Positions 28,955 through 64,000 of a stretch of DNA of 64,000 nt are shown here, in pieces. Source of the stretch: Siphonodentalium dalli (Eukaryota; Mollusca; Scaphopoda; Gadilida; Siphonodentaliidae). Both the position numbers and the translations under genes were made by a program. The notes under the pieces are model-generated. The model made no database searches, was not told the origin of the DNA, and saw only the letters and a list, made by a program, of their open reading frames with translations. How positions within the stretch are numbered: position 1 is the stretch's first letter; every line of letters starts with the position of its first letter. The stretch lies in contig CP136064.1 of the NCBI GenBank assembly GCA_032622095.1, forward strand, positions 109,852,004-109,916,003, given 5' to 3'.

Positions 28955-29560
28955 TAGTTATAACCTAGTTCAGTAATGAACATAGTGCATACCCTTCTGG
29001 AAGCAGCAATCTGCGAAAGCAGTCATATTGACCTACTTTACTTTTAGTAAATTAGTCTTTATATTATAACCCTGTGGTGACTCTAGTAGCATTCTTTAAC
29101 GTACACACACTGAGGCATGTACACGGGTCAGCCATTAATGTCCGCTCCCGATCGGACTTTGTACTGCACCCACGACAACATACCTGAACAAATGTTGTAA
29201 TGGGGGGGGGGGGCAGGGAAGTCGGCATTTTTCATTCGGATCTTTATTCAGTTTAATATATCCATTTCCCAAAACATTATCTACAAGACGGGAAATGGTT
29301 ATATCCGTTTCCCACTTCATGCACTTGTTATCTTTTATAATTAAATGTTTTGCCACTTTTGCGCATAGTAACATGTACCGGTATTCAATATACTAGTAGG
29401 CCGATCACTCAGTTTAGGGTCCAGGAAGATGTAGGCTATCCTATTTTTGGCGTCACGTGCCGTGATTCGTGATGTCATTGTTCCAAAGGAACAAGAAGTG
29501 GGGGCAAACATATCATATAGCGAAATTACAGCCCCCAAACACATAAATTTGCGAAAATAG

Positions 29561-30547: not shown

Positions 30548-30696
30548 ATGGACCCCAGGCTTCTGGGAATAGCTGCCGGGTATCATGGTCCAGAATTAAT
30601 AAAGCATTTCGAGGGGGAGCAGCAGCAACAACATATTCTCTCTCAAATTTATAAACAGCCACTTCAACAACCAAGCAGTGGGGGTATGGAGATGCA
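30548..30696 (+). CDS. TTC14: TTC14 coding exon 1 (start codon)
   Basis: Begins [20 protein letters not shown], similar to the TTC14 N-terminus. It is the first ATG after an in-frame TAA at 30500-30502, which supports this start. Donor ATGCA|gtgagt, phase 2; using the later GT would include an in-frame TGA. A pyrimidine-AG acceptor (tgtttcag, ending near 30478) suggests an upstream non-coding exon. Confidence 0.9.
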
Positions 30697-42600: not shown

Positions 42601-45600
42601 TCTGTCAGGATTACGGGAAAGCAAGAGAAATTGATCACCTGCATGTAACAGTAAGATATATTTATGTTATGTGTTGAAACCTTACACTAAAGATGCCATG
42701 TATGATTGAACACCCCTTACTATATCATTTGGATCGATCTGAAAAAATATTGGATTTGAGTCAATGAATCCACCAGAGCTGTTAAGTTTCACGGATTGTC
42801 CGTGAGACTCACGGATTGTCATAGATAAAACAAAACCTCCAAAATACAGAAGACCAGCGGTAATGGTAAAGTCAACTCAGTAATTTAATAGCGTGTAATA
42901 AACCCTCCCTGGCATACGGCTCCTATTCGGAGAGACAATAGAACACATCCGACATCTCGTTAGCTAGACTTGCAAACAAGACTTGCCTATAATACTTCCT
43001 TGTTACCACCGATAATATTTTAAAAATAAAATGTCTTTATTACCTGAATACCCCCAAACAATGAGATTATATGGAGGTTGTTGGAGCGCAGGGTTTAAGG
43101 CATAAAATTGGGAGACTCACGGACTAAACGGGAGATTATACAGGTCTCGTGTTTTCCTTTTGAACGTTCTGATTCTGAAACAAAAAGTTGGATACTCAAA
43201 ACTGCGATGCCACACGGCCAATTTTTTTTGGAACATGAGCATATATGGGCTGCCTCCCGCAAAAATCTCCCGGATTGCCATTTTGAAAACTTAACAGGTC
43301 TGGAATCCACCCTTCAAAGCTCAGAGCTATTAGATATCGATTTTTGAGATCTTTTTATTTTTTCTCTGCTTCGATTCCATATATGTTGATGTCTGGTTCA
43401 AACTGGAATTCCCCAGCATAAGTCATCACAAATGACAATACAATCATTTGTATATCTCCCTAGAAATATTTTGTTACTCCCGAAATTGGGCTCTGCCTGC
43501 AAAAGCGGACTGCCGGGATGAGCGTTAATTACGTTGTACCCGCTTTAGTGGGCTGCCGGGTGAAATAGTTAAGGAAAATGGGAATTATAGAGACGTAAAC
43601 CTGATAAGGTTATCATCAGCTTTTTAAAGAGAGTGGATTCAAAGCTGATGCCCAAACGATGTTGACAATAGATTCATGGATCAGATGGATTCTTAAATGA
43701 TCGAAACCACATAAATGTTCATGCATTCAATTAAAGCGATGTTTGGTTTGTCTACGTATGTTCGGGGATCATTGACGAAAGGATAATTCTTCATTTACAT
43801 TGAGTGTACAAATTTTACCTTTAATTTACTTTTCAGGTATTTTGCCCAGTTAGAGAGTTGCCGAAGATATATTCTGATCAAAGTTCTACTGATGTTTTTC
43901 AAAAGAAGGACCTTGTCAGAGGTAAGATCTTAATTGATATGCCTATTTAAATAATTATATATAATGAAAACTATCTATAATTTGAATATAGACCGATTTT
44001 CAATCTTGATTGATACATTGCTATTTCAATGAGAAATGAGAATTTGTTCACGTACATTGATGCAATGAACATTCATACTGAGTCAGTGCCTCTATAAATA
44101 TGATATATCTATATGCCAGTATAGTACCACAAATCTGATAGTCACAAATACAATTTTTGGAGGAAGTGCTTTGTGCTGTTCCAATATAATGGTAGATCTT
44201 CTTTGCATCAACCTTTGAACCCATGTGCAGACTGATAAACAGCTCAACTCTTGGTAAAATGGCTTCCTTTTTAGGGATGTCCCTGTATCTGAGGTGGTTA
44301 GTCCGCATATACGGACATCGCAGTATGGGCTAGACAAGGTTTGGGTTCAAACCCCAACATGGGTGAAAATCGAGACCAATTTTCAACCTTGATCTGAATT
44401 GTGGGACATCTCAATGTGCCTTTGCTATCGATAGAGAGAAGTTATTCACACACAATGAAGCAATAAGCATTCATACTGAGTCAGTGCCTCCATAAATCTG
44501 ATATATTATGGCAAGCAATTGTACTGTTCCTAATGCAAAGATGAAAAAATCAAGTTTTAATACTTACCCTTTCTATAATAAATACTCATTAATGACTCTT
44601 TGCCTTGGGAAATGATCAGACCATAGATTGTTTTTTGAACTTATTATCTAAACATTTCCCACCAATGAATATGAATACTTCTGTGCTTGTATTATATTTT
44701 TGTCTGGCTGTCGTCTACTCATATATCCTTAACATAAATAACAATAATATAATAACATAATTGTTCTCGACTGTAAGTCACTATGACTTTTGGCCAGTTA
44801 TTGAGCAATCACTCTTCAAATTGGGATCTGATATCCCAAAGCTGTGCATCTAATATCTCTTTAAACATCTTGATGTCCTCAGCATGAACTACAAACTCTG
44901 GCAAGTCATTTCACTGGTTGATAACACATTCTGTAAAGAAATATAACCTAACGTCTTTGTTACATCTATTAATCTGGATCTTATATGTGTGCCCTCTCCT
45001 CCTGGTATCAGTCTTTATTTCAAACGACTCACCTACATCGATATTATAGTATCTCCGAATAATTTTGTATGTTTCTATTAGGTCCCCTCTGAATCTTAAC
45101 ATTCCTCCAAATGAATAATAGACCATTCCAAAGAATTCTTTTATAACTGAGTGTGAAAAACCGTTTAGTGTAGAAAGTGTTAAATGGAAAGAATGTGTTT
45201 TATCTGCTTCAGCAGACAGTCAGTTTACAGACAGGTTGCGTATAGGTGTCTGTGACTCTGCAAATAAGTACTTTACATGAAGATATCAATTGAAAGACTA
45301 CTCTGAAAATTTCGAACATGTAATCAAATGTTGAATCATGTGAAATTTGATTCTCAATTGGCATCATTTTTAGGAAGACAGTATGAACAAAATTGTATAT
45401 CATCCATTGCGAAGTGAATCAAGACTTTCTATGATATTTTGGAAGATCACTTTATCTTTTCGTTTCGACTGTATTTACTTTCCTTATTTTTATATGAATC
45501 AGATATGTAGTTCTGCCTGTTGTTAGAAATGATAGTACTGATGTTAAAATCATATCAATATATCACTCTAGGTAAATCCCTATGTCATGTTCGGGTAGTA

Positions 45601-48600
45601 CAAAGTCATAATTTGTTATTCGTTATATCAGATTAAATTAGTTTATATCTATTACAAAGTTCTCCCTACATTTTCATGGACCTGGGAAGGTATAACAACC
45701 CATACTTACTATGCCAGTCTATGGTAAAAAAAAAATAAAAATAAAAACCTCGCTCCCTCATTGATTTTCAAAAAAATTGCTGAGAACAAATATATTTTTT
45801 TGTTTGGCCTTACTATTGAAAGGTTAACAACAATTTATATTTTGACCAAGAAATAAAAAGTGACACGTTCTCAGGCCTGGCCTTTTGAGGTAGGTGATTG
45901 TTCACATATGCCACGGAATCGAGATAAGGCATACAGATTTCACCCTCCCAACATCAGTTATTACAGTTAATGAAAGATGTAAGGATCATATGGAAAAATC
46001 CTGTTAACCTACCTTTGCGTATGACAACAATTTCTCATAACACATTTAGTACACAGTTTATTATATATGGCTATAGGGAGACAGAGGTGGATTAAGTGGT
46101 AACTCATTACATTTTGCGAATCATTTCAGGAATTATTCTTAGTGTGAATCCAGAAATTGAGAAGATAATTGTTTCTTTGGTTGATAGATCACCTCCTTCG
46201 GATTCACCACGGCCATCCACGGTATGTAGAGATAATCAATATCTGACAGGGACTTTACAGATCCTGGCCATTGTTTGCTTAGAATAAGCTTCAATCACCT
46301 CACAATAATTATAACCCATTGATAAGTGTGCCTGATCTGATACATTTGAATCTTAACCCTTCCATGACTGGAGCTTCCTGAAATTTTGCAAATGTCAGAG
46401 AAAGCACTGGCACAGTATCTTTAATGCTGCACCAGCGCAACTCCCGTCATGAAAGGGTTAAACATGGGGGTGCACCCACAATATGACTATATATATAACT
46501 ATACTGATTGTTGTTCAAACTTGACACCTGTTCTGCTTTCGCTGCGAAGGACACATAAGATCCCCTGCTGGTCACCCATTCTAGTACTAACTGCTTTCCT
46601 TTCATTTAAAGGCCCACTTAATTTTTGAACCCCCAGATAACATTATATAAAATATATGCCATATTATATACCATTTGAAAGAGGAAGCTTCAAAACATTG
46701 TATTATCAACTTATTCGATGTAATAAACTGTGAACATGTTGTATTTGTTGAGATACTGACGTCTGCTCTGTGCTCATGTTTGTGCACAAAGTCTATTATT
46801 TTCAATGGAAGGGCAATAACTATATATTTAGAAAGAGTTATTCTCTTCCATTGAAAATAAACTAGTTTGAATTCTGTTGCATTCTGGGAGCCATAACGGG
46901 GGAAATGATTTAATGAGTTCAGCTATGTTCTATTACTCTATGGGCACCTTCTGAAATGCAGACATTCCAAATGGTGATGAATTATAGTATTCTAATCATA
47001 TTTTATGGCATAGATTGTTATTAAAACCATATATCAAGTCACTATAAAAATAAATAATCAGTGACTTGAAAATTAAGTGGGCCTTTAAAGTTATTTAAAG
47101 TAAATATGTACATTAGATTAAACATATTTTATTGAAATAATTATATCACAAAGGGATCAGAGCACAAGTGATGGCACAGTCATTGCTCTCCCACAGTAAC
47201 ACTTAATCATTGAAGTATATACATCAATTACATTTTGCAAACATGTAATTTAATCATAAATGATCAATAAAGTTAATGTCTAATGAAATATATACATATC
47301 AGGGAGTTGTCATATTGTGAGCTGTCATTGAGATAGAGTTTTATTATATAGTTTCTTAATCAATATAAAACGATTTATATCACAGATGAATGTTCCCGTC
47401 AAAGATATGTTTACACACTGAACTACATGGTGTATTCCTTTCTTTTCACACAGGGGTGATCTATGAGACTCTTAAGAAATTTTATTATTTCGGTACAAAA
47501 TAGCAAAAGTACATCTTTTTAAAGTTACACTTAACTAAAAGGTCGCTGCGAGGTAACTGATTATGTGTTGATAGCTATATAAGCCATGACTGCGAAGATT
47601 TGATTTATGAAGTGTTCACATTATTTGGTACGTATATGCTATTGGACTGAAAAAAAATTCTGTTTATATTACAGGGACTTATCACAGAAGATGACTTTCC
47701 AGTTCACTACAGGTACTCTGAGAGGGGATAAAATAATCTTAAAATATATATTTAAATGTGGTGAATATCGTGTCTGTTTCTGTCACTCTCTGATTGCATG
47801 TTTGTTAATAATGTACTCCCATCATTCATCAAACAACCATCACCAAAATCACCATTTTGACAAATGCTGACACAATTTGAATGGGACATGGGCTGGGTTT
47901 TGATTTTGCCTTCACAGGTTTACAATGGAATGTGTCTTTTTGGAAAGAGAGACTTTTTAAATTCACGAATTGAGTTCCATAATGTTCTAAGTTAATGGCT
48001 TATTCCAGAATTTCTTTCAACTTTAAAATTTGTAGAAAAAAACCTGTAAATGGGATGAAAAATTATATCTTTCTCTTTTCAGACGTAAGTTACAGATGAG
48101 AGGCCTGACATATGAAGAACTGATGAACACAATTCTTGGATTCAACAACTCTGGAAATGTGTCATGCTTGTCGCACTTGTTGAACTTAAAGGAAACATCG
48201 TCTGTAACTCGATACCTTCACAAGTGAGTATATCAGATGGAGGCATTTGATGTCATTCCCCAAGATTTGATAGCAGATAACTGAATATATATGTAAATTA
48301 CATTGTCTAGCCCTGTGGTGAAAATAGTTTGACTGAAAGACTCATTTAGGCTCAACTTAACAAAATTCATGTTTCAGCTATTGTCATGGGTTGGCATCCG
48401 TCGTGCGTTCCTGATCCATAAACAATTTCATTTGGCACACCCTACAGGCCACACCACCCCTCATCCGATTGTCACAAAACTTGATATGGATCTTCAGGGT
48501 GACCACTAGATAGGAGCCATAAAATATTTCTGAATTTCGTTAAAAAATTTGGCCACCAGCAGCCATCTTGGATTTTAGTCTTTGCATGACTAAATCCTTT

Positions 48601-51600
48601 GGCACACCCTACAGGCCACACCCCTCATCAGATTGTCACCAAACTTCATATGGATCTTCAGGGTACCACTACATGGGAGCCATCTATTTTTTCTGAATTT
48701 CGTTAAACATGTGCACCAGCGGCCATCTTGGATTTTATTCTTTGCATGAATGCCCTGCAGCCAACATGTTTTTGATCCAATTAAGCCCAAACTTCATATG
48801 GCTGTTCGGATTGACCTCTGGTATTAATTAAACATTTCAACTTTCCACATTCCTTATTGCTCTATTAAATGTAATTTATAACATTATCCCCTTTTCAAGT
48901 TGAGCTACAGTCATTTTCATAACATCATCTTTACAATACTGATGCATTATTTAGTCAATGATATCTCAATCTTATGAGAATCATATTTGTTTAATTTTTA
49001 TTCTTACCTGAGACTTTTGTGTCATGCAAGCTAAAACTGAGATAAAATGTTAACAATTCTATAAATCTTTTGTCAGACGAAAAGTAGAAATAACTATTAT
49101 GTGTCAGATATGTTCTCTATATATCAGTATATCTGAGTCTTTTTTTTCTTTTTCCAGCCTCGATGTGCCAGACGAAGAGTTTGCAGATAGGCTTAGAAAG
49201 ATACAGACACAGAAGTGGGCTCATAAAAGGTCCTGCCCAATACCAGTCTAAGTTAACTACCGACCCACATGTAGATAGAGGGTCTGATTACTTGTCAAAG
49301 CACTCTAAAATACATCTAATATTGTTCGCTTTTTTCCTGGTATTGAAGTAAGTCGCTAAATACTTGAAGTACCTTTCGACAAGCATTTTATGTCCCAGCA
49401 AATACTGCGCCATTTGTATTGAGTGAAATTATGTAATCGGAAACGGAATAACATGAGACTGTCCGGAAAGTGTATATTGCTTTATCTTAGCATGAAACTT
49501 TTTTAACGCACTGTTTATGTTTCGTTTTAATCATAAAAATTATGTAGTATTTAAACGATTCAGAGCAACAACAGCTCTAGAGATTTTCTTCCCATTATCA
49601 ACAGGTGCAATTTTTATGCGACTGTCGATTTAAAAATTTGAACTGGTATAAACGAAACGATCTCAAATTTCTCGAAAAATATAAGAACAAAACAGGCGCT
49701 ATTGAGATAACTCTTACCAATTTATGAATACATAATGTGAGATTCTAATGAGCCATGTCTGTTTAAGATCTAATCCATGCATCACTATGTCTCTCTGTTA
49801 GCTTTTGCTGAACCCAATAATATTAATTATGTCTACTGATCGACAGTAAAATAAATACCAAATGTAAACAAAGATTTGTTTTCTCTGATTTCTAGTGTTG
49901 CTCAAGGAATATCATTCTTGAAAGCTGGGAAACACATGGAAGCTATGCAGTATTTAAATAAGGCTTTGCAGATAGACACAGAAAATGTGGAAGCTTTGGT
50001 AGCCAGGGGAGCTTTGTAAGTACAAATTGTTTATTTGATATACAGTAAATGCCCATTATAATATCAGCAAACATCAAATTCATAAATACTGATTGGGAGT
50101 CATATTGATTTTGCAGATTGCATATGCACAAACTAAACAGGTCAGGCGCATCCTGATTTCACATATTATAGTTATATTTTATAACTATAATAGTTGAATA
50201 TGGGTATTGACGTTTTGTGAATTCGATAAAAGAGAGATAATCCAAAATCAAATTTCACAAAAAATATTAAAAATCAGCGCCCAACTAATCCGTACCATGT
50301 TTGATTTTGTGATGAAATAACAATGTATCGATCCATGCAACCTATTAGTCTTGATGGCACAAACATGATCGTCCAGTCAATTAACATTCAGTTCTAAATA
50401 TTGTAACGAAGAAGCGATTGAGTCGCATGTCAAAAGCATTTAGAAAGGCACACTTTTGGCATTATTAAAGGAAATAGCTGGCGCAAAATGTTACCCAACA
50501 AATGTTATCTGGAGATTGTTCATTTGCTGCAATATTACTAAGACTGCAACTGTTCACTGGGATGCGCGATCCCCAAGATTCCTCTAAAACAGGAAATTGT
50601 GGATTTAGCACTGTCATATTCAATTATAACTATAGTAGTTGAATTCAGGATGTGCCTTTTTTTTCAAAAGTTCCAAAAATAATTATTGATTAATCCTTTC
50701 TGTGCTGAATGGATTTTCCCATTTACTTATAAAAGTATACATTGGAATGGCCCTATTATTCATTTGGAAGGAGGTTCATGTAATAAAAGATGACAAACAG
50801 ACTGAAAGATAATTCAAGTGCTGGTGTTAATTGGTGGGAAATGTTCAGATAATAAGTTCAACAATTGTTGAGCTTATTGTCTGAACATTTCCTAAACGAA
50901 CTACTTGTCACTGAATTTTTATTTATTACTAAATTAAAGTGTTAATTTATCATCTGTCAGACAAGGTGCAATTTTGATTCACTTAAACAACATACGTGAA
51001 CATGTCCCGTCTTAGTGAAACCAGATATTTTGTCATTAAATTTATGTTCACTCTGGCATGCGGCTACTCACCTTATCATTAGTTATAAGATATGTTGTTC
51101 ACCTATTACAGATTATATTTCCTAAGTTTCATTGCATTCGGATTTCCACATTTGAAGATATCCTTGAAAATATCTGGGCAACTGACTTTTTTTTAGGTGT
51201 TTATAAGGATGTATTGAGGTGCTACATTTTAGTTATCTTTATCCTTGTGACAAACCTCATTCAAAATGGCAATTATCAGCTCTCAACTCGGGTTTCATGC
51301 ATCAGTCAAATAAGGCAGCGAGATATAATGTTTATAATTGTTTGTTTTTTCAGATATGCTAATAATGAAAGTTACGCAAAAGCTATAGAAGATTTCGAGA
51401 AAGCCACAGAGCTGAAACAGGATCACAAAAATGCAAAGAAATATATGTATGAAACTCTGATTGCTTATGCCAAAGTGTAAGTAAATTGCAGGTTTGAGCA
51501 TTGTCATCATCACTATACATATTGATAATGTAATAAACTAAGTCACTCAATGAAAAATCATCTGGCTGTATGGGGGTCATCAGCATTTTATATGCCCTTT

Positions 51601-54600: not shown

Positions 54601-57600
54601 AAACAGAATAACGCATTACTGTCTGGAAAAGGAATATTGCGTTATATTAACATGAAACTAAAAAAAAGGATCTTCATTCAAATAAGCAAAATAATGTAAT
54701 ACCATAAACATGTCAGAGCGACGACAGCTCTATATTTTCTTTCCATGGACTACCAGTGCGATAAATCCACAAAACCACTCGTTGTGTAAATTTGATTCAC
54801 CCGGACACAATGGGGATATTCTATATGTATATCATTCTTAGTTGGACTTGCTGATTTTAAAAAAATGACCTGTCACATACAAAATAGTCTCCAATTTACA
54901 AAAAAATATAAGAAACAAAAGACATATTTTCAACTCTGTCAACAAATTTGTTCTGAAATTTTCGATTTATGAATGTTTTGAGATATCTCTTACCAACTTA
55001 TGTTTTTTAATTTTGTGGTTTCAACGAGCCATGGGTCTGTTTAAATTGAGCTATAAAATTAACTAGTGCTGTCAGAGAATTAGAAACTTTATCATAGTAT
55101 TGAAAATTAAATTTCAATAGCTAAAATAAAATAATCCACCAGAATCTTGTAGCAATCTTGTAAACATTTTAAATGTGTAAATTTGTGTTTGTGTTTGATT
55201 ATGGGTGCTATTCTGATTCGGTGCCCTTCTATTTGGAGGTAGTTGAAATGAAATTAATGCATGTTACACATATAGTGGCAAATGAAGAGTATTTCTTATT
55301 TTTCAGTTTAGAAGATGGGAGGAAGTATGAAGACGCAGAATTACAGTACAAGAAGGCTTGGCTGGTTGACCCTCAATCCAAGGAGGTCATGGATGGACTT
55401 GAAAAGATTCAAAAGAAGATGGTATACAAGTTTTGATTCTCATTTTCTGTGTTTGTAGCTTTTGGGAATGGCTTCATTTTGTTGGTACCAATTTTCATTC
55501 TTCGTTCATAAAACTGTCAATTCGTGAGTTGAAGATATTTTATCGACATCAACATGTCAACAGTCAACCAGGTATAGTGACAGCTTTGAGCAACCATTCA
55601 TTGAGAATTTGGCTACACAGGTAATACGCAACGAAATTTGGAGAGCTTGAAGTACCAGTTGTAAAATTCCAACCTAAAAGTGAATTTTGTGAACTTAGGA
55701 CTGTGGTCTGGTTGTCTTGTTCAAAAAGGGTAGGGGATTGGAGATTTGTCAGTAGTGTGCATTTAGAAATTTTAAGGTGAAGTCCCCTGCTCAACAGAGA
55801 ACCTCCAGCTATGTCTCTGTTTAGAACTACTTGTATTAAAGGGGGACTGTACACTAAATCCGGCCATTTACGGGACCATCTTTCATTATAATTACCATGT
55901 GTTTGCATCATTTATAGAGCACATGAGTGTATTTTGCACTCATCCATGGCTCAAATTCATTCATTTGTTGCATATATTCTGTTGAGTATAAATGGAGATG
56001 GTCCCATAAATGGCCAGATTTAGTGTACAGTACCCCTTTAAGAAATTACTGACTGACTGTTGTGGTCTTCAGTGATTCAGATTTGAATGATCTTTATGCT
56101 GTTGAACCACTCCGGGGGAAACAATATTTATGTTCACCAGGTTTCGTCCATTCATTTTTTTTTCAATGATGGGACTTGGTGTGAAAAATGAAAATTCATC
56201 TATGCCAACTTTGGATCTCTGTATCACAGTCATTGTTGGTCATGTTTACATGTAAATGATCTTTAGTATGCTCATGTAGGGAACAATATTCACTGTAACA
56301 GATTTTGTGTATTCAGTTATTTCTGTTGTATGGTCCTTTGAATGTAACATATTCCCATCACTACCTCCATCATCTTAGATGGGGTGTGGATGATCTTTTG
56401 CACATTAACAATGGGATGAAGGCTATCTACATGCTACATGTTTTGTACAGTCACAGACCAGATTAAGACATCTTTTGAATTAAGCCACTTCAGAAAATGA
56501 ATAAACCTCATAGGAAAGCCACCTTTGCAGGGGATACTGTGTGGTGCACTTGTTAACCGTTTCATGACAGGAGCTGCGCTGGTGCAGCATTAGAGACTCC
56601 GTGCCAGTGTATTCTGAGACTATTCTCTTATATATGCGAGTCTCCCACAAGGAGCCTCGTATATATAAGAGAATGCACTGGCTTACAAGATCAAGGTAAA
56701 TATTGCTAGGCCAATGTAATCTCTTATATATGTGATCGCACTTCTTGTTCTTTCTATTTTAAGATGAAGAAAAAACAAAAGGCTGCCCCCGGTAATGATG
56801 GGAATACTTTGATAGTACTGGTCGGCAATGACAATATGGCACCATCAATCAGGCAAGTATAATATTCCTCTCAATATATCACCAATCAGTATATATTCAA
56901 TGAAGCAAGCCTGCAAATAGCGAATCTGTCATTTGCAGAATGAGGTCCCCAGAGGATGAATTTAGTGATGCTATCCCGCACAGCGGGCTAGCATCACCAA
57001 ATTCACCCTCAGGGGACCTCATTCTGCTTAGGCCCTCAACTGCTATGGGAGACCTAGGATCAGATTGAAGTTCCCCCAGTTGAAAATAGTGATATTCACC
57101 CATTGGGCACCTCGATTATGCATTTTATCTTCTGCAAATTAGGGAATATAGAAACTTCCAAAGAGGGAAAACGTAACTAAAAATAATGTTAATTTGAGAC
57201 TCTTAGATACTTCCCATAATATGAGGCCTAAGCAGAATGAGGTCTCCAGAGGGTAAATTTGGTGATGCTAGCCCGCTAAAAGGGATAGCATCACTAAATT
57301 CACCCTCTGGGGACCTCATTCTGCAAATGACAGATACGCTATTTGCAGGCTTGCAATGAAGGGACCCAGTGATCTAACTTCCAGTTAGTCGGTATATCTC
57401 TCTAGTGTTCAAAATTAGGACTTAATCTTTTCTTGACTAAATGGGTTCTCCGATTCAATTATAGAAATATGCATTCATGGAATTGTCTATTGTTCATCTG
57501 GCGATAGTAGACAGATGGATGATACAATTCCTGAAGGATTCCCTTTCAGTGTTGGGGAAATGTTGAGATAAAAAGTTCAACAAACGGTCATAGTATGTTC

Positions 57601-60600
57601 GTTGAACTTGTTATCATGAAATTTCCTTATGGAACTACTCTTCAATAAGTGTTTAGTAGAGAAAGGGTAAAATAATTGTTAACATATCAGCTAATATTTT
57701 CATGAAGTCTGTTGGGCTTCTGGAGGTCTGCCTAACTTTTGGTAGCTTTATAGCTCTTGGTTTGTGATTTTTCAACTTGTAAATGTAATAACTCAAATAA
57801 ATGGTTCATACATATGGCCGTTGTTTGGAATATGATTATTCCTATAAGATGGTCTATTTCGTCCTATAACAAGTTTTTATATAGTTTCCTCGGTATAAAT
57901 AATAAATATGAATTGAAGACCCCTGTCCGGGAATGCTTCCATCAATTAATATTGATTTTATTTCAAATTATCTCGTATAATATACATACAATCAATTTGG
58001 GACATTTTAAGGCTCGCTTACGTTCGAAGCATATCATGCGGGATACTCTATCTAAAAATTAAAAAAATAGTAACAAAAAATTATCCCAATTGATTATCGC
58101 ATTATATAAGAAAATATTTATAAAATCGATATTAATTGAAGGAAGCATTTCCGGACAGGTGTCTGACTCATATCTATTATCTTATACCCTGGACATGATA
58201 TAAAACGTATTTAAGAAGAGATAGATCATCTCTAATAATATTATCTCCAAAATTTCATAGACATATTAATCTTTCCAGGTCTTCATCATCATCTTCAAGA
58301 TCTTCGAGATCAAGCTCCTGGTCATCATCTAGTCGTTTGTATTCCTCAAGCTCCAGTTACAGTTCTGGATACCGCCGGAGATCCAGATCTCCTGGACAAA
58401 GGAAAGTCAAGCGTATAGATAACCGCCGCATCTCCAGAGGTTCATATTCTCCTGATAGTAAGGGCAGAAGAAAATCAGGGAGTTACACTAAAAGGAGGTC
58501 ATATTCTGGTTCTCCCAGAGATCGGCGACCAAAGAAACTACGATCATATTCGCCAGGCTCTCCAACAGAAAGAAGAAAGTATAGATCTCGCTCTCAATCA
58601 CCAAAGCAGAAGCCAAAGTTGAAAGAAAAGAAGAAAAAAGTTCTGGAAAAGTCTAATAAAGATGCAAAGAAGAAAACTATATTATCTAAAAAGAAAGAAA
58701 CGGAAAAAGACAAGGGGAAAGATAAGGTTAAGAAGAAAACAAAGAAACAAACAGATGAGAAAAGTGAGAAAAAATCCACAAATGAGAAGAAAGCCGATTC
58801 AAAAAGAGAGAAAGACATGTCATCCAAGGAATGGCCAGGAGTAGAATCGATGCAGCCTCGATCTGTCAAGGTCTCAGATGATAAAGGGAAAGTTGCAGAT
58901 AAAAGTAGATTGGCAACAGGCTCGATATTGCCAAAGGAGAACGACGATCATACAGAGAAGATGAGATCACATTATGCAGACAATGGCGGTGATAAAAATA
59001 ATGGGAAAAATCAGGAAAGCGCTGACGTTGAAGAAATGCTCAAAGCCATAAATGCTGATGTACAAAGAGCTACTGATAAAGAATTCAAAATGTCCAGCGA
59101 AAAAGACTCAAGGTCAGCTGTAGAAAGAGCTCCATCAAATGATAGAGATCATCAGATCAAGTGTTCTGGTGAATTGGAGCCTCGTCTTTCTAGCAAAAAT
59201 GAAGACAGACACATGCGTGAAAATGAACTTGACCATTCATTTAAGAGAGGACGTCTTAATGAGGATGAAAAAGAGTCACAGCATGTGATTGAAAGGGTAC
59301 CTGCAAGTGCCACTGAAAAGCAGCCAAGACGTATTGATATTGAGGAGTTCCGGCGAATCCAAGAGAAGAAGAAACACTTGGATGAAAAAGTTCCTGTGCA
59401 TGCTAGTAGAGAACTGTCGCAGATAGAATATGATGAGCGTCATAGACCTGATGTAGGAAAGCCAAAAAGAACATTGGACGATGACTTGTATGGCGAGGAA
59501 CCATCATCATCTCTTGAGAAATTGTCCTCTGTTAAAACATCTCCAAAATCTGATTCTCCCTGGGGTGATACCTTCTCATACATTCCTGGCTTCTCTCCAG
59601 AACGACATGTTGAAGTAGAGAAAGTACCACAAGCAAAACATGTAGAAGAGGAAAAATTACAGAGGAGAGAGGAGATGGTTGCAGTGCGTGGGAGGCCGAC
59701 ATTATCATTACGTTCTGATGCTGAAGTTATTGATGATAAACATGCAGAAAGCTTTCCAGATCCTCACGACTGGAGTGGAAGATACAGGAGTCATGCCCTT
59801 AGTTACGAACAGGCAATGCATTCTCAGAGAGCTGCAGAGTTGAGTAGTTACAATGAGCCTGTTCGTGAAGGTGATCGATATGTGAATCAACATAATGAAC
59901 CTGCGTATCAATATTCGGATCCAAAGAATGCTGCAGAAGAACGTCATCCAATGTATGATAGAGGAGATTATGCTAAAGAGGAGGTGATTGCATGTCATCC
60001 ATTACCAAAGAGTATTCTGAAGACTCGAACTAAATCAAATGTGCAGGAGAAGGGAAGAACAATGCTGACCGAAAGGCCAACTCATATGTCAAGAGATGCT
60101 AGGTCTATGGAGGACGCTGATAGAGCCACTCGTCCATCAAGAGATGGCCGGTCTATGGAAGATGCTGAAAGAACCACTCTTCCGTCTAGAGATTCTAGGT
60201 CTATGGAGGATGTTGATCTGTACGAAGATGCTCTAGAAATGTTCTCAAGTTCACAAAAAGTGGAAAGAAAGGTGGAATCTCCCAGAGAACATTCGATGCA
60301 GAAAGGAATTCTCAAGCAGATGACCAGGTCAGACTACGGAATAAGTTCAGCTGACCCTGCCAAGGATAATAGTCATGCATTATATGAGAAAGCTGACAGA
60401 CGAGCTATTCCTAAAGAACGTAGCCAAGAATCAGACAGTTTTGGTCTGATGGATGACCTCTATGAGGACGCGCTTCAGATTTATTCTAAAAGATCACCAA
60501 TTCCATCAAAGCAACCGGGAATACCAATGGGTGAACATGTTTATATGGCGAGCCAATCAGATGACGTCTCTCAGCACAGTAACACTTCTGGTGGAAGACA

Positions 60601-63090
60601 GATCCATGCACCGCAGTCAGCATTTCCTGTACATGAAGAAAGAATGGTACGCATTAGCGAAAAATCACCAAGTCGAGACCCATCTAATCAAAGACAAGAT
60701 GAAGGATTTTGGGTTAATCGGCAACAGAAAGTTTTTCCTTCAAAATCAGAGGGTGGGTTCGGTGATGCCGATCCTTTTGGAATGAGCCAGATTGTTCAAG
60801 ATGAGAACTACAGACAGAAACAACATTCTAAAGAACAAGAGAACAAGAGAAGGTCGCCCAGCAAGTCCCCTGAGGATTTATATGGTGGAAACACTGGAGG
60901 GATTCCTTTTCTTGAGACTGGGTCAATGTCAAAGAGCTCAAGGTCACAAAGTATTTCACCTGATAGGAGGGACAAACGGTCTGTAGTGAGTGAAGATCGA
61001 GTCGTATTAATGACTTGTAAATCGAGGAGCAAGTCGCCAGTACAGCGGGTATATAAGGATGATCATGTTTCAACGAAGCAGTATCCTCAAGATGGACGAA
61101 GGTCACCAGAGCAGCGAATATATAGAGATGAAAAGTATCCAGCAAAACTCTCTTCACCAGGAAAAAAGTATTACAGAGATGAAGAAGGTAGAGCTATAGT
61201 TGTACGCTCTGAAGATTTATTGCATGCTGAAGGTAGAGTTGCAGCCCCTCGTGTAAGAGATGATATGTCTTATCAGAAGCAGAAAGATGTTGTTAAATAT
61301 CAGGATGATGTTGGTGACCGAAGGAGTCTATCGGCACAAGATAAATATCAGAGGGAGTTTGATGAAAGGGAAATGTCTCACGACGAGAAGTTTTACCCAC
61401 TGGCAAAGGTCCCAAGGAGTAAATCTTCAGAGGAAATATACTACAAAGATGAGAGCGGTCAAATCCGAAGGCTGTCTCCGGAGAGAAGATCGGCAAAGGC
61501 TGCCAGAAGTAAATCTCCAGAGGAAATATATTATAAAGATGACAATGGTCGAATCCGAAAGCTGTCTCCGGAGAGAAGATCGTCAAAGGTCGCCAAGACT
61601 AAATCTGAAGAGGAAATATATTACAAAGATGAGAGCGGTCGAATCCGAAGGCTTTCTCCAGAGAGTAGATACTATAAAGAAGAAATTAGATGTCAAAGCC
61701 CACCAAGAGAAAATTATGTTAAAGAAGAAACTGTGACTAAGGGCATCTTTCCCATTGACAAATTGTATTATCGAGGTGAAGAAAAATTATCTCATCCTGA
61801 GAATTCTGGAGTACTCGATGAGAGATACAGACAGGTCGAAAGAGCCGGATCACATGAAAAATACTATGTCATCGAAAGGGGTGGAAAATCTAGTCGCTCA
61901 CCAGAAAGTGAGTATTATAGAGATGAAGGTCGAATGCGAATTATCTCATCAGAGAAAGAATATTATGCTGACAGAGGAAATAATCAATATATCAAGCCTG
62001 AAAATATACACTTCAAAGATGAGAAAGATATTGACAGAATTCGACCAGAGATCAAAGGCCATGTAAAAGGTAAAGGAGAACTCAGAATGATTTCTCCCAA
62101 TGAGACTTATGGAAAGGAGAAATATGCCTATCAGGATCCTTCAGTGGAGAGAATTAAATACAAGGATGAGTATGATAAGCAAAGGTCATTCAAATATGAA
62201 CAAGAAGATAACTCAAGGTCAACGTCACTCAAGTATGACCAAGGTGATAGAGAAAGAAAAAGTCCAACACTTGAATCAAGGTACTATATAAAGCAAGAGA
62301 AAGGAGGCTTTAAGAGCAGGTCACCTGAAAGGATCTCCGAGAAAGTTTGTATGAGGAGTATTTCCCCTGAACGAGTTTACTACAGAGATAAGCAAGGTCA
62401 TCTTAGGATGGAATCACCAGAAAAAGAAAGTAAGCAGACAACAGAAAAGTGGGTTGAAGAGAAATCATATACGGATCAAAAGGAAAGAAAGAAGAGTTTG
62501 TCACCAGACCGGAAGATTAAACGAGAGAAAAATAGTATTCCAACTCCAGTTCATAGTTCAAAAGCAGTGAAGAAATCAAAGAAAAAGAAAGAAAAGTCAG
62601 ATAAGGATGATAAAGGCAAGAGTAAATCTGCGATGTCAGAAGGCGGGAGAAGTCTCACTGCAGATGATAAACGGCATCCAGGAAGCAAAGGTGAAGGTCC
62701 CAGTCCAACAGCAAACGAGAGTAAGAGTACAAAATGGAAGACAATTGGGTCAGAGAATGTCACTGTTACCATAACAGCAGGCAAAGATACTGCACGAGAA
62801 ATAACTGGTCAGTATTTTTTATTATTTTACGTAGCAGGTCAATACTTCTCTTAGCTCAGAATTGGACAAGAAAATTTATAACCGACCGATTATGCACTTG
62901 TCAAATCAATGTCAAATAAATAAAAGTACTTTTTTCTCCAGTGCCTCGTTCAAAACTTAATCTCAAGTTATCCACAATTATAAATATTGAAGATCAAAGA
63001 TTATCATCAAGTTTGTCACCTGAAAGGATATATTGTAAAAATCATTTAAAAAGTTCTTGGAAAATTGAAGAATTTTATTCCACAAAGTAA
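30548..63090 (+). CDS. TTC14: TTC14 orthologue, complete, 15 coding exons, 2,004 residues
   Basis: Coding exons: 30548-30696, 32614-32726, 39048-39124, 42528-42650, 43837-43921, 46130-46221, 47675-47712, 48083-48223, 49158-49229, 49896-50015, 51354-51476, 55307-55421, 56764-56852, 58279-62807 and 62942-63090. They sum to 6,015 nt with every junction phase consistent. Domains in order: conserved N-terminus (1-50); S1-type OB fold (about 117-200) starting in the [10 protein letters not shown] segment; family linker; three TPRs (about 298-331, 337-370, 378-411); Lys patch; RS/Ser-rich tract (about 446-550); Lys-rich tract (about 556-625); and a long charged tail with repeats. Human TTC14 is about 770 residues, so the tail is greatly expanded. 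Family knowledge: TTC14 is a poorly characterised protein with S1 and TPR domains; an RNA-related nuclear role is likely but not shown here. Identification of the N-terminal 445 residues is very strong. Confidence 0.94.
31170..32249 (+). mobile_element. hAT transposon derivative (1,080 bp) with 8-bp TSD
   Basis: TIR TAGAGATGGGCGGTT, exact at both ends, and target duplication CTAATTTG (31162-31169 and 32250-32257). The paralogous sequence near 57120-57165 has one CTAATTTG and no insert. The element keeps a short BED-finger reading frame (31289-31399) but no transposase catalytic region. Confidence 0.9.
31289..31399 (+). pseudogene. BED zinc-finger remnant of a hAT transposase
   Basis: Thirty-six codons then TGA, encoding S-P-V-W-K-Y-F followed by K-C-A-A-C-N-I-C. 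The S-x-V-W-x-x-F ... C-x-x-C pattern is the first half of a BED finger; the His pair is lost. It lies in the correct position near the 5' end of 31170-32249. It is a truncated transposase start, not a host gene. Confidence 0.7.
32614..32726 (+). CDS. TTC14: TTC14 coding exon 2
   Basis: 113 nt, acceptor tccacag|A, donor GACG|gtatgt, phases 2 to 1. Encodes [20 protein letters not shown] and on to ELEKGD, aligning with the family's K-F-x-x-x-K-A-D-x-L-F segment. Confidence 0.92.
33941..35422. mobile_element. hAT-like non-autonomous element, 1,482 bp
   Basis: Ends TAGTGCTGGGCGATAT and, inverted, TAGGGCTCGGCGATAT, with perfect 8-bp duplication TTATAAAT (33933-33940, 35423-35430). Sub-terminal ATATCG repeats on both sides. 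Open frames inside do not resemble transposase. Confidence 0.85.
35970..37030. mobile_element. Pearl-like element with CCGTCCGTC tract and 148-bp units
   Basis: Starts TTTTTAGCTCACCTGAGACA, then a CCGTCCGTCGTGCCGTCCAT tract. GGGCCGATTTAGCT recurs 148 bp apart (about 36621 and 36769), with GGGGCCATAACTC in each unit. A further diverged unit lies at 38255-38465, beyond a block of other repeats. Reversed compared with 10690-11616. Confidence 0.6.
37330..38060. repeat. Irregular tandem repeat (TTTCCAAC units)
   Basis: Three to four units with GTCATCAGTT(G/T)GAAATTTTCC, GGAAATTTCCAAC(A/T)CT, GTCC(T/C)(T)GGTCCCTCCCCC and GAACCATGGTC. Similar TTTCCAAC text reappears at 38635 and 55645. It is in TTC14 intron 2. 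Confidence 0.6.
39048..39124 (+). CDS. TTC14: TTC14 coding exon 3
   Basis: 77 nt, acceptor ttttcag|AT, donor TATTTT|gtgagt, phases 1 to 0. Encodes [20 protein letters not shown], a highly conserved TTC14 block ([10 protein letters not shown]). Confidence 0.94.
39203..40812. mobile_element. hAT-like element, 1,610 bp, with nested family C insert
   Basis: Ends CAGTGTTCGCGC and, inverted, CAATGTTCGTGC, with perfect 8-bp duplication GGGAGTAC (39195-39202, 40813-40820). Sub-terminal TTTGGCCAAA/TTGGCCA repeats. The family C element 40080-40465 is nested. It begins only 78 bp after TTC14 exon 3. No transposase seen. Confidence 0.87.
40080..40465 (-). mobile_element. Pearl/Helentron-like element, family C copy 3, one monomer
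   Basis: Reverse-orientation copy with a single core monomer and a CCGTCCGTCTGTC tract. It sits inside the hAT-like element 39203-40812, so it inserted later. Confidence 0.8.
41750..41932 (-). repeat. Fragment of a family C relative
   Basis: Ends in the reverse complement of the family C 5' end (GCGATGCTCTTG). It shares the monomer phrase AATGAAATTTGGTATGTGAG with 51670-51850. No microsatellite tail here. Confidence 0.6.
42528..42650 (+). CDS. TTC14: TTC14 coding exon 4 (S1 domain, first half)
   Basis: 123 nt, 41 codons, phase 0 on both sides, acceptor gttgcag|AGT, donor GTAACA|gtaaga. Encodes [20 protein letters not shown] and on to [11 protein letters not shown]-x-V-x-G-x-V with the following G is the S1 OB-fold signature. 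Confidence 0.94.
42774..43302. mobile_element. hAT-like MITE, 529 bp
   Basis: Ends CAGAGCTGTTAAGTTTC and, inverted, CAGACCTGTTAAGTTTTC, with perfect 8-bp duplication GAATCCAC (42766-42773, 43303-43310). Its ends match those of 9037 and 14114. Confidence 0.85.
43837..43921 (+). CDS. TTC14: TTC14 coding exon 5
   Basis: 85 nt, acceptor ttttcag|GTA, donor GTCAGAG|gtaaga, phases 0 to 1. Encodes [20 protein letters not shown] followed by FQKKDLVR, collinear with the S1 middle of TTC14. Confidence 0.92.
43988..44105 (+). repeat. Truncated SINE body
   Basis: Shares GACCGATTTTCAATCTTGAT, AATGAACATTCATACTGAGT and CAGTGCCTC(T/C)ATAAAT with the SINE at 44281-44510, but has no tRNA-like head. 5' truncation is usual for such copies. 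Confidence 0.65.
44281..44510 (+). mobile_element. tRNA-derived SINE
   Basis: Head with A-box-like TGGTTAGTCCG and a very good B-box GGTTCAAACCC (about 44344-44354), 45-50 nt apart. The body holds GAGACCAATTTTCAACCTTG and CATTCATACTGAGTCAGTGC. A second body without head lies at 43988-44105. Confidence 0.7.
44809..45126 (-). pseudogene. LINE reverse-transcriptase ORF, 3' end fragment
   Basis: In one minus-strand frame: [42 protein letters not shown], then after an in-frame [16 protein letters not shown]. The R-G-D-L-I-E-x-Y-K, R-G-H, R-x-x-x-x-x-x-F-F and W-N-x-L-P run is the C-terminal signature of non-LTR retrotransposon ORF2; the TGA replaces the Trp codon of W-N-x-L-P. A dead 5'-truncated copy in TTC14 intron 5. 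Confidence 0.75.
45127..46129 (+). other. TTC14 intron 5, right part
   Basis: AT-rich intron. It holds a fragment of the GGCCAAAA/AACAAA family at about 45720-45830, also seen at 1645-2130. Otherwise I see nothing. Confidence 0.45.
46130..46221 (+). CDS. TTC14: TTC14 coding exon 6 (S1 domain, end)
   Basis: 92 nt, acceptor tttcag|GA, donor TCCACG|gtatgt, phases 1 to 0. Encodes [20 protein letters not shown], the last strands of the S1 fold, then a Ser/Pro linker. Confidence 0.92.
46353..46461. mobile_element. Palindromic MITE, family B copy 4 (short)
   Basis: TTAACCCTTCCATGACTGGA at the left and CTCCCGTCATGAAAGGGTTA at the right, with the central hairpins lost. It shows the true outer ends of the family clearly. 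Confidence 0.75.
46610..47084. mobile_element. TTAA-flanked MITE, 475 bp
   Basis: AGGCCCACTTAATTTTTGAA at the left, inverted as TTGAAAATTAAGTGGGCCT at the right, flanked by TTAA on both sides. It contains an internal hairpin CAATGGAAG...CTTCCATTG near 46800-46855. The TTAA target suggests the piggyBac group. Confidence 0.78.
47675..47712 (+). CDS. TTC14: TTC14 coding exon 7 (38-nt microexon)
   Basis: 38 nt, acceptor attacag|GGA, donor TACAG|gtactc, phases 0 to 2. Encodes [13 protein letters not shown], aligning with the family's G-x-I-x-x-x-x-x-P-x-Y-Y-R-R. Skipping it would shift the frame. Confidence 0.88.
48083..48223 (+). CDS. TTC14: TTC14 coding exon 8
   Basis: 141 nt, acceptor tttcag|A, donor CACAA|gtgagt, phases 2 to 2. 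Encodes [20 protein letters not shown] followed by [17 protein letters not shown]; corresponds to the helical linker (S.E.....LGF.N......LL) between S1 and TPRs. Confidence 0.92.
48347..48907 (-). mobile_element. Second copy of the 3106-5152 family, opposite orientation
   Basis: Read on the minus strand it begins TAGCTCAACTTGAAAAGGGG, matching the left end at 3106, and ends AAGTTGAGCCTA. It contains two monomers (about 168 bp apart) with the same phrases, for example ATTTAGTCATGCAAAGA and CCAAGATGGC. It lies in TTC14 intron 8. Confidence 0.75.
49158..49229 (+). CDS. TTC14: TTC14 coding exon 9
   Basis: 72 nt, acceptor tttccag|C, donor AAAAG|gtcctg (weak match after GT), phases 2 to 2. Encodes [20 protein letters not shown] and AHK, matching the family's D-x-F-A-x-x-L-R-K-x-Q-x-x-x-W-A segment. 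Confidence 0.9.
49330..49760. repeat. Dispersed repeat shared with 54210-55040
   Basis: Shares CGCTAAATAC..GAA(G/C)TACCTTT, TATGTCCCAG, GGAAACGGAATAA, TTAGCATGAAACT, CAGAGCAACAACAGCTCTA and GAGCCATG..TCTGTTTAA in order. The 54210 copy is split by a family B MITE. Confidence 0.65.
49896..50015 (+). CDS. TTC14: TTC14 coding exon 10 (TPR 1)
   Basis: 120 nt, acceptor tttctag|T, donor GCTTT|gtaagt-like (gtaagta), phases 2 to 2. Encodes a complete TPR ([20 protein letters not shown]) followed by [12 protein letters not shown], almost the same as the vertebrate TTC14 sequence there. Confidence 0.95.
50142..50660. mobile_element. Inverted-repeat element in TTC14 intron 10
   Basis: CAGGCGCATCCTGATTTCA with ATTATAGTTATA...TAACTATAATAGTTGAAT at the left is mirrored by ATAACTATAGTAGTTGAATTCAGGATGTGCCTTTT at the right. 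No clear target duplication. Confidence 0.55.
51354..51476 (+). CDS. TTC14: TTC14 coding exon 11 (TPR 2)
   Basis: 123 nt, acceptor ttttcag|A, donor AAAGT|gtaagt, phases 2 to 2. Encodes [20 protein letters not shown] followed by [15 protein letters not shown], the second TPR and the conserved NA.KY...TL. Confidence 0.95.
51477..53320 (+). other. TTC14 intron 11, left part
   Basis: Apart from the repeat fragment at 51596-51850 I see nothing: AT-rich intron without conserved frames or clear repeats. Confidence 0.45.
51596..51850. repeat. Fragment of a family C relative
   Basis: Begins with GCCC then a T run and GGGACGTATTATGTTAT, the reverse of a family C 3' end. It contains the same monomer as 41750-41932. 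It lies in TTC14 intron 11. Confidence 0.55.
53330..53600. repeat. Two foldback sequences side by side
   Basis: First: AAAGTCATATTGGACTCGAAT ... ATCGAGTCCAATATGACTTT (about 53336-53398). Second, about 53449-53594: CATTATACAATGTTGTG..ACAGTATGT mirrored by ACATACTGTGTGCAACATTG, closing on GTTGTGGTGAAAAGTCATAT. Both contain GTCATATTGGACT. Confidence 0.7.
54210..55040. repeat. Dispersed repeat copy interrupted by a family B MITE
   Basis: Copy of the 49330-49760 repeat, interrupted at 54290-54521 by a palindromic family B element. Confidence 0.6.
54290..54521. mobile_element. Palindromic MITE, family B copy 5
   Basis: TTAACAC..CTTTACTGGAGCTTCC at the left and GCTCCCACCATGAAAGTGTTAA at the right, with two internal CATTCTCTTA(T/A)ATAT hairpins. 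Confidence 0.75.
55307..55421 (+). CDS. TTC14: TTC14 coding exon 12 (TPR 3)
   Basis: 115 nt, acceptor ttttcag|T, donor AAGATG|gtatac, phases 2 to 0. Encodes [20 protein letters not shown] followed by [18 protein letters not shown], the third TPR. Confidence 0.94.
55840..56037. mobile_element. TTAA-flanked MITE, 198 bp
   Basis: AGGGGGACTGTACACTAAAT and inverted AGGGGTACTGTACACTAAAT, flanked by TTAA on both sides (55836-55839, 56038-56041). Arms continue through GGCCATTTA.GGGACCATCT. Confidence 0.82.
56553..56735. mobile_element. Palindromic MITE, family B copy 6 (truncated right)
   Basis: TTAACCGTTTCATGACAGGA at the left, GTGCCAGTG..ATTC hairpin, GGTCAA-type phrase, and a cut second hairpin. 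It ends about 30 nt before the TTC14 exon 13 acceptor. Confidence 0.7.
56764..56852 (+). CDS. TTC14: TTC14 coding exon 13 (non-canonical GC donor)
   Basis: 89 nt, acceptor ttttaag|ATG, donor ATCAG|gcaagt, phases 0 to 2. Encodes [12 protein letters not shown] and on to DNMAPSI. No in-phase GT donor gives a good continuation, while AG|GCAAGT is the consensus of GC-AG introns and joins in frame to the Ser-rich start of exon 14. Confidence 0.82.
56906..57353. mobile_element. hAT-type MITE, 448 bp, intact relative of 31032-32464
   Basis: CAAGCCTGCAAATAGCG at the left and its inverted copy at the right, with perfect 8-bp duplication CAATGAAG (56898-56905, 57354-57361). Sub-terminal hairpins TTTAGTGATGCTA...TAGCATCA(C/C)(C/T)AAAT on both sides. 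It starts 53 bp after the GC donor of exon 13. Confidence 0.87.
57848..58230. repeat. 383-bp imperfect foldback just before TTC14 exon 14
   Basis: The left arm (57848-57965) and right arm (58124-58230) are complementary over most of their length; best part GACCCCTGTCCGGGAATGCT versus the complement of AGCATTTCCGGACAGGTGTC. It ends 48 bp before the exon 14 acceptor. Confidence 0.7.
58279..62807 (+). CDS. TTC14: TTC14 coding exon 14 (4.5-kb RS/low-complexity exon)
   Basis: 4,529 nt open without interruption, acceptor ctttccag|G, donor ATAACTG|gtcagt, phases 2 to 1, residues about 446-1956. It opens with Ser/Arg-rich sequence ([14 protein letters not shown] then SRSP and SYSP dipeptide blocks), as in TTC14 after its TPRs. 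Next come a Lys/Glu tract, three 16-residue R-D-x-R-S-M-E-D repeats (60079-60225), two D-L-Y-E-D-A-L motifs (residues 1092 and 1172), and many S-P-E-x-x-Y-Y-x-D-E units (61150-62450), three of which are exact 90-nt tandem repeats. The open frame can be read on to a TAG/TAA-type stop at 62852-62854 if the donor is not used. Predicted disordered, highly charged, likely phosphorylated; no enzyme domain seen. Confidence 0.9.
60079..60225 (+). repeat. Three 48-bp coding tandem repeats in TTC14
   Basis: GTCTATGG recurs at 60103, 60151 and 60199. The encoded 16-residue unit is (S)R-D-x-R-S-M-E-D-x-(D/E)-R-x-T-x-P-S. Confidence 0.9.
61415..61680 (+). repeat. Three 90-bp coding tandem repeats in TTC14
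   Basis: AAATCT.(C)AGAGGAAATATA starts at 61421, 61511 and 61601. The encoded 30-residue unit contains K-S-x-E-E-I-Y-Y-K-D-(E/D)-x-G-(R/Q)-I-R-(R/K)-L-S-P-E (Lys at residues 1494, 1524 and 1554). Confidence 0.93.
62915..62924 (+). terminator. Overlapping AATAAA poly(A) signals inside the last intron
   Basis: Two overlapping AATAAA hexamers lie 60-70 nt after the stop codon reached if the last intron is retained (62852-62854). They could end an alternative, shorter TTC14 transcript. Use is not shown. Confidence 0.35.
62942..63090 (+). CDS. TTC14: TTC14 coding exon 15 (terminal, stop TAA)
   Basis: 149 nt, acceptor tttttctccag|TG with a strong pyrimidine tract, entering in phase 1 and ending at TAA 63088-63090 with the frame kept. 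It encodes [20 protein letters not shown], then [26 protein letters not shown]. The S-P-E-R-x-Y motif continues the repeat style of exon 14, which supports it as coding rather than intronic. Confidence 0.7.
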
Positions 63091-63463: not shown

Positions 63464-63556
63464 GCTTCAACAGCCTAAAATAAACAGCCATACAAATATG
63501 GATATCATTGGAACCGGTTCATTGACCACATTGTGATGGTTACAGTTATGCCCTGT

Positions 63557-63776
63557 GCCAATGCATTCTCTTATATATGCGAGTCGACCATAGGTCGCCT
63601 CGCATATATAAGAGAATGCATTGGCCTAAAAAAAAAAAAAATTCTTACATTTTTTATAATATTTTTATACATTCTTTGACAATTTTATCATTTTTAATAT
63701 GTGTTAAGCCAATGCATTCTCTTATATATGCGAGGCGACCTATGGTCGACTCGCATATATAAGAGAATGCATTGGC
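63557..63776. mobile_element. Family B copy 7: pair of 69-bp hairpins
   Basis: Two near-perfect hairpins, 63557-63625 and 63708-63776, each GCCAATGCATTCTCTTATAT ... ATATAAGAGAATGCATTGGC. The loops (TCGACCATAGGTCGC and GCGACCTATGGTCGAC) are themselves reverse complements, so the pair also forms one larger inverted repeat. Confidence 0.85.
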
Positions 63777-64000
63777 ACAGGGCTGATGCCAGTTGATCAA
63801 TCAATAAGTAGATGTTTTGAGTCATAGTTGTCTCTTTCAACTTCACGTGTATTTTCCTCAGAAATAATCTGACAGTTGTATGCTCGTTAAACTTCTATCT
63901 TCCAGTTATGGTGGTTCTCCTGTGAAATGACAGATTAAATTGAAAGTGATAACTCTTGCTTCGATTAATGTTATGAGTTATAACCGAAAAGTTATTGGAA

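Follow-up and report, generated by a model that had tools for sequence, protein, structure and literature searches.

With moderate confidence, we argue that the 64-kb window (the whole stretch of DNA analysed here) contains an animal TTC14 gene with a disordered C-terminal tail that has grown to about 1,560 residues. The growth would have taken place within a single large exon, in part through tandem duplications of short units that keep the frame. We see in it a known kind of tail made longer and not a new system. The exon, its composition, its repeats and the synonymous bias between the repeat copies can all be seen directly. The putative gene runs from 30548 to 63090, about 32.5 kb.

The tail exon and its composition

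An ORF scan of the 64-kb window finds a single stop-free frame of 1,551 codons on the + strand, from 58199 to 62851. The runner-up stop-free run in the same window is 161 codons. In 60 first-order random windows of 64 kb the longest run had a mean of 143 and a maximum of 197 codons. Splice sites were scored with a simple matrix of the general splice-site consensus. This matrix gives 7.2 to the acceptor at 58279 and 7.4 to the donor at 62807 (CTG/GTCAGT). The exons that make up the tail, and the two blocks at its start, are:

58279..62807, + strand: tail exon, 4,529 nt (ORF, splice sites, selection on repeats)
62942..63090, + strand: last exon, 149 nt including the TAA, acceptor 9.1, with the twelfth copy of the motif described below at 63016-63057
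58279..58606, + strand: RS/Ser-rich tail start, residues 1-110, with 25 R, 9 K, 35% Ser and 15 RS/SR dipeptides
58607..58876, + strand: Lys-rich block, residues 111-200, with 33 K, 2 R and 16 D+E

Spliced together, the tail exon and the last exon encode 1,559 residues. The exon at 58279-62807 is genuine, and its coordinates and structure are correct as far as the sequence tells. The initial annotation had proposed one uninterrupted 4.5-kb exon plus a small last exon, encoding an extension of about 1,500 residues, and both the exon structure and the length stand. The earliest ATG of the tail ORF is at residue 181 of the tail or later; the RS start therefore requires an upstream exon and cannot begin a protein by itself. 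The last intron (62808-62941, 134 nt) holds two AATAAA signals, at 62915 and 62919, and an in-frame stop at 62852. These signals make an alternative, shorter transcript end possible.

It is worth considering the composition of the tail piece by piece. The first 200 residues carry net positive charge. Residues 201-1400 are mixed-charge (123 R, 108 K, 231 D+E) and near-neutral in net charge over most of their length, and residues 1401-1510 are Lys-rich again (24 K, 6 R). In total the tail has 180 K and 159 R. RS dipeptides run through most of the tail in SR or SRRM2-type proteins; here 15 of the 59 RS/SR dipeptides fall in residues 1-110 and 44 in the other 1,449. The R-MCD speckle domain uses R rather than K, together with D; here R/(R+K) is 0.47 and E exceeds D (10.1% against 7.2%). 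The claim that the tail is SR-like overall is therefore not borne out, as RS/SR dipeptides thin out after the start and K and E match R and D in frequency. RS-type character holds at the base alone.

By the charge-hydropathy rule 1,479 of 1,510 windows of the tail are disordered, but so are 57 of 93 windows of the TPR control, and the rule therefore discriminates poorly and carries little weight. The hydrophobic fraction, 20% in the tail against 37% in the TPR control, separates the two better. The tail exon has no match in Pfam, NCBIfam, PHROGs or PDB sequences. Six pattern stretches resemble it in viral contigs and none was confirmed, a result that is uninformative on animal orthologues.

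Repeats and a recurring motif

Three features of the tail bear on how it was lengthened and whether the protein sequence matters:

60089..60217, + strand: 48-bp tandem repeat, 2.7 copies (SRD.RSMED), TRF score 174, rough pN/pS 0.27
61402..61670, + strand: 90-bp tandem repeat, 3 copies of a 30-residue unit, TRF score 385, rough pN/pS 0.40, predicted hairpin
61103..62404, + strand: region with 11 of the 12 motif copies scoring 5 or more in the matrix scan

A distant copy of the 90-bp unit at residue 1363 gives a pN/pS of 0.38 against the tandem units, with synonymous sites near-saturated. All of these ratios are rough, since the same copies enter several pairs and the number of compared sites is small. 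When the 90-bp units are read in frame +1 the relation is reversed (pS 0.11, pN 0.18); this control value comes from frame +1 only, frame +2 containing stop codons. Taken from the sequence, the ratios point to protein-level constraint on the tail repeats.

The 30-residue units contain the motif SPExxYY[KR]DExG. A 14-mer matrix of this motif, built from four copies, finds 12 peaks scoring at least 5, all at tail residue 943 or later. Four of the 12 trained the matrix and eight did not. The same scan of 500 local shuffles gave 0.65 peaks on average and 5 at the most. The copy in the last exon is rare by this measure: outside the tail exon, just one other of the 54,715 six-frame positions scores as high. 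With the motif of the tail present in the last exon too, the 62807/62942 splice in that frame gains support. The one other position is at 29264 on the + strand (ISQNIIYKTGNGYI). It belongs to a different open frame, which lies upstream of the gene, and its score of 10.2 is above that of the last-exon copy; it is probably a chance match among so many positions. An HMM of the three tandem units finds one more strong copy at 17.2 bits, the next scoring 3.2. On the last exon it gives 5.0 bits, which four other ORFs equal or beat and which is not decisive, and for this copy we rely on the 14-mer matrix and not on the HMM.

One could suppose instead that the tail is a nearly neutral disordered region that lengthens freely by repeat slippage, with no function beyond its RS base, and that its length is meaningless. 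Low-complexity composition is what such a region would have, and the 48- and 90-bp arrays display the lengthening process itself. Against this stand pN/pS values of roughly 0.27-0.40 between repeat copies, holding out to the distant copy, and a motif that recurs in the last exon. We regard this neutral account as a minority possibility and prefer a TTC14 tail that was lengthened partly by duplication and is constrained in its repeats.

The heptapeptide DLYEDAL also occurs twice in the tail, at 60215-60235 (residue 647) and 60455-60475 (residue 727), each time about 50-70 residues after an ILK motif. In 1,000 local shuffles there were 0.145 repeated 7-mers on average. The pair may be a duplicated short module, which is only suggestive.

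TTC14-like exons upstream

The nearest coding exons found upstream on the + strand are TTC14-like TPR exons. They come from a tblastn search whose query, a provisional sequence for part of human TTC14, served only as a lead. The search gave 40 rows in the window, from which nine were picked for their order and strand (+). Only four of these nine have E < 0.01 and the other five are above 0.01. The corresponding exons are:

30548..30696, + strand: candidate first coding exon (MDPRLL), tblastn 38% over query residues 1-26, E 6.9 (weak alone), donor 6.7
32614..32726, + strand: candidate TTC14 exon (KADILF, row at 32636), tblastn 33%, E 2.4 (weak alone), collinear, acceptor 6.7, donor 7.8
39048..39124, + strand: TTC14 exon (YAIMPPLE, row at 39047), tblastn 52%, E 7e-4, acceptor 7.6, donor 4.5
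42528..42650, + strand: TTC14-like exon with the putative first S1 half (row at 42516), tblastn 30%, E 1e-5
48083..48223, + strand: candidate TTC14 exon (row at 48078), tblastn 30%, E 0.36, acceptor 11.1, donor 9.1
49158..49229, + strand: candidate TTC14 exon (row at 49162), tblastn 41%, E 3.1 (weak alone), acceptor 13.7, phases compatible
49896..50015, + strand: TTC14 TPR exon 1 (row at 49906), tblastn 62%, E 2e-10, Pfam TPR_1
51354..51476, + strand: TTC14 TPR exon 2 (row at 51307), tblastn 38%, E 4e-5, acceptor 10.2, donor 6.4
55307..55421, + strand: TTC14 TPR exon 3 (row at 55308), tblastn 42%, E 0.06, weak phase-0 donor ATG/GTATAC scoring 2.2

Pfam places TPR_1 in the TPR block at 4.1e-13, and over 37 residues the block is 62% identical to the provisional human TTC14; on these two counts it is like that of TTC14. 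The S1 region of the provisional human sequence matches upstream of the TPRs over half a domain only (tblastn E 1e-5), and Pfam has no S1 match in the 49-residue piece 42504-42650, which is half a domain only. A pattern scan between 42650 and 48083 did not find the second half of S1 or the exon(s) that would carry it. The three N-terminal pieces lie in order on one strand, with E values of 6.9, 2.4 and 7e-4 against the provisional query. A stretch at 43099 (GIKLG) was also considered as a TTC14 exon and was dropped, there being no tblastn row at that place.

It had been claimed that the N-terminal part follows vertebrate TTC14 closely. That is true of the first TPR exon (62%) but not of the other eight pieces, which are 30-52% identical to the provisional human sequence. 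The proposed total of 2,004 residues fares better: 1,779 residues from 48083 on and about 154 upstream fit a protein of about 2,000, but the middle exon(s) of that sum were not found. Relatives of the TPR block are absent from viral contigs, and 18 pattern stretches in prokaryotic contigs were none of them confirmed; this too is uninformative on animal orthologues.

A probable joint from TPR exon 3 to the tail

TPR exon 3 ends in phase 0 and the tail exon needs two upstream bases. A linker was sought among single exons of 24-400 nt that lead from phase 0 to 2 and have both splice scores > 2. Eight single-exon candidates fit the phase. The one with the top summed splice score is:

56764..56852, + strand: candidate linker exon, 89 nt, phase 0 to 2, GC-AG donor, starting with ATG (splice score; frame open when joined)

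Its donor, CAG/GCAAGT, has GC in an otherwise consensus context. This exon keeps the frame open all the way from 48083 to the stop codon at 63090, and the phases are compatible. The tail had been annotated as the C-terminus of TTC14. It is in the right place, on the right strand and, given the candidate linker, in the right phase, and it has the RS/Ser-rich start that TTC14 would lead one to look for; what does not carry over is an SR-like character overall.

Human TTC14 gives a standard for this joint. PMC7279152 gives its order as S1, TPRs and a Ser-rich disordered C-terminus, with the Ser-rich stretch after the TPRs at residues 475-525, an order that the gene here would share. The same paper has human isoform 3 diverging after residue 430 with a peptide that starts with V. 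We infer that isoform 3 could arise when a phase-0 GT donor near the matching position of the gene here is read through, in which case the human gene, too, would have an exon boundary directly behind its third TPR exon. Read-through of the TPR exon 3 donor in the window gives an early stop, after VYKF. The human linker was not found in the gene here. The K/E-rich linker of the provisional human sequence gives no tblastn row between 55422 and 58278, and likeness to it is absent in all eight single-exon candidates (single-exon solutions only). The Ser-rich region of that sequence likewise gives no tblastn row on the RS start of the tail.

Since the candidate linker starts with an ATG and is unlike the human linker, the joint is likely only, and another explanation stays real. 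The tail exon could belong to an independent gene that follows a TTC14 with a short tail and begins with the ATG at 56764 or in an unseen first exon. That ATG has an A at -3, but a fair acceptor (6.7) stands directly before it. A short-tailed TTC14 would suit the early stop on read-through, much like human isoform 3, as well as the weak donor at 55421 (2.2) and the lack of likeness to the provisional human linker. On the other hand, the tail opens Ser/RS-rich just where human TTC14 is Ser-rich, and the tail exon matches no other family in the four databases named above. We consider a separate gene unlikely. The more likely reading is that the TPR exons and the tail belong to one TTC14 gene.

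Comparison with known proteins and possible function

Human TTC14 (Q96N46) has 770 residues, of which 389-770 are disordered (382 residues), and the tail here, at 1,559, is about four times as long. The tail here also has the SPExxYY motif, which we set as a difference from the human protein. PMC10048706 describes human TTC14 as a spliceosomal component that was identified biochemically and whose function is unknown. Our literature search found no paper that combines TTC14 with the nuclear speckle, and among the literature matches listed none reports, in its title or the start of its abstract, an invertebrate TTC14 with a long tail.

The nearest precedent in length is SRRM2 and SON. According to PMC7671692, both were lengthened mostly in disordered regions through metazoan evolution, and their lengths vary widely. 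Like the gene here they are splicing-linked proteins with a very long low-complexity extension. The likeness is one of length and low complexity, and the RS dipeptides of the tail here are densest in its first 110 or so residues only. If the joint is true, this gene would join SRRM2 and SON as an example of a disordered tail that has been greatly lengthened in a protein linked to splicing.

Another comparison is with the R/D-type mixed-charge domains treated in PMC9324279. According to that paper, the combination of R and D drives incorporation into nuclear speckles, the effect of E and K is limited, and net positive charge enhances incorporation. The tail resembles these domains in being mixed-charge, of low complexity and near-neutral over most of residues 201-1400, but it differs in having K and E as common as R and D. 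The initial annotation had suggested a stronger role in RNA-processing condensates for so long a tail, which the example of SRRM2 and SON makes plausible. However, R and D favour speckles, E and K do so to a limited degree, and the tail is largely K/E-rich, so its greater length need not mean a stronger condensate role. The net positive charge of the first 200 residues would fit such a role for the base of the tail. A true SRRM2-like SR-type scaffold, with the whole tail driving speckle condensation, would have the RS-rich start and the metazoan lengthening of SRRM2 and SON (PMC7671692) in its favour, but RS/SR density drops too far after residue 110, and K outnumbers R and E exceeds D where R and D are reported to matter (PMC9324279), which makes it improbable.

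The reading we prefer, a lengthened TTC14 tail, suggests a simple division of labour. The S1 and TPR parts would dock TTC14 on spliceosomal partners. The short RS base would be the phosphorylatable, speckle-directing part, resembling the Ser-rich stretch of vertebrates. The long mixed-charge remainder could then act as a flexible multivalent tether, adding reach and many weak contacts. The repeated SPExxYY[KR]DExG units might provide many weak contacts that are possibly controlled by phosphorylation, and they would be the best candidates for specific contacts. They replace "an RS tail" with concrete motifs that can be tested.

Predicted structure of the motif units

Eight of the 12 motif copies were aligned as 30-residue units (alignment A2), those at residues 1127, 1224, 1240 and 1536 being left out. 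With this eight-sequence alignment AlphaFold2 predicts strand-turn-strand-helix for the unit, at pLDDT of about 80 over residues 1-20. A single-sequence model of 334 residues gives the three tandem copies pLDDT of 71-78 (10-residue means), the copy at residue 960 about 55-62 and the surroundings of the copy at 1208 only 31-44. Later copies are below 50, as are 248 of the 334 residues. The three tandem copies are thus predicted to form beta-hairpins, and the models are not confident of a hairpin outside them. In most copies an SP site precedes the hairpin.

We take the YY-x-D-x-x-G turn of the tandem units to recall the beta-hairpin repeats of choline-binding or YD type. As in those repeats, the turn lies between two short predicted strands. 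Unlike choline-binding repeats, the units score 12.6 bits with Choline_bind_1 against a Pfam cutoff of 20.5 and match no PDB sequence. At loose E-values the tandem units collect 11 Pfam rows, all below cutoff, and Pfam has nothing for two other pieces of the tail. The likeness is likely to be convergence.

One can go further and picture the tail as a CTD-like array. About a dozen SPExxYY[KR]DExGx[IL]R units would sit on a disordered chain, the best of them as small beta-hairpins behind an SP site. Phosphorylation at Ser-Pro or Tyr would switch each unit as a docking site, and together the units would make TTC14 a multivalent spliceosome platform in this lineage. We offer this as a speculation and think it rather doubtful.

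Inverted-repeat elements in the window

No tRNA and no Rfam match was found within the 64-kb window. It does hold a short inverted-repeat element (GCCAATGCATTCTCTTATATATGCGAG...). There are 12 matches of CTCTTATATATGYGA in the window with one mismatch allowed, against 0.01 expected. The sites are:

63550-63783: inverted-repeat element, match to CTCTTATATATGYGA
56622-56731: inverted-repeat element, match to CTCTTATATATGYGA
further single sites: match to CTCTTATATATGYGA

The site at 63550-63783 consists of two 33-nt hairpins within a larger inverted repeat of 103 nt. Our guess is that the element is a family of MITE type. The candidate linker exon at 56764-56852 sits about 30 nt downstream of one such hairpin element, and the linker may have been altered by its insertion.
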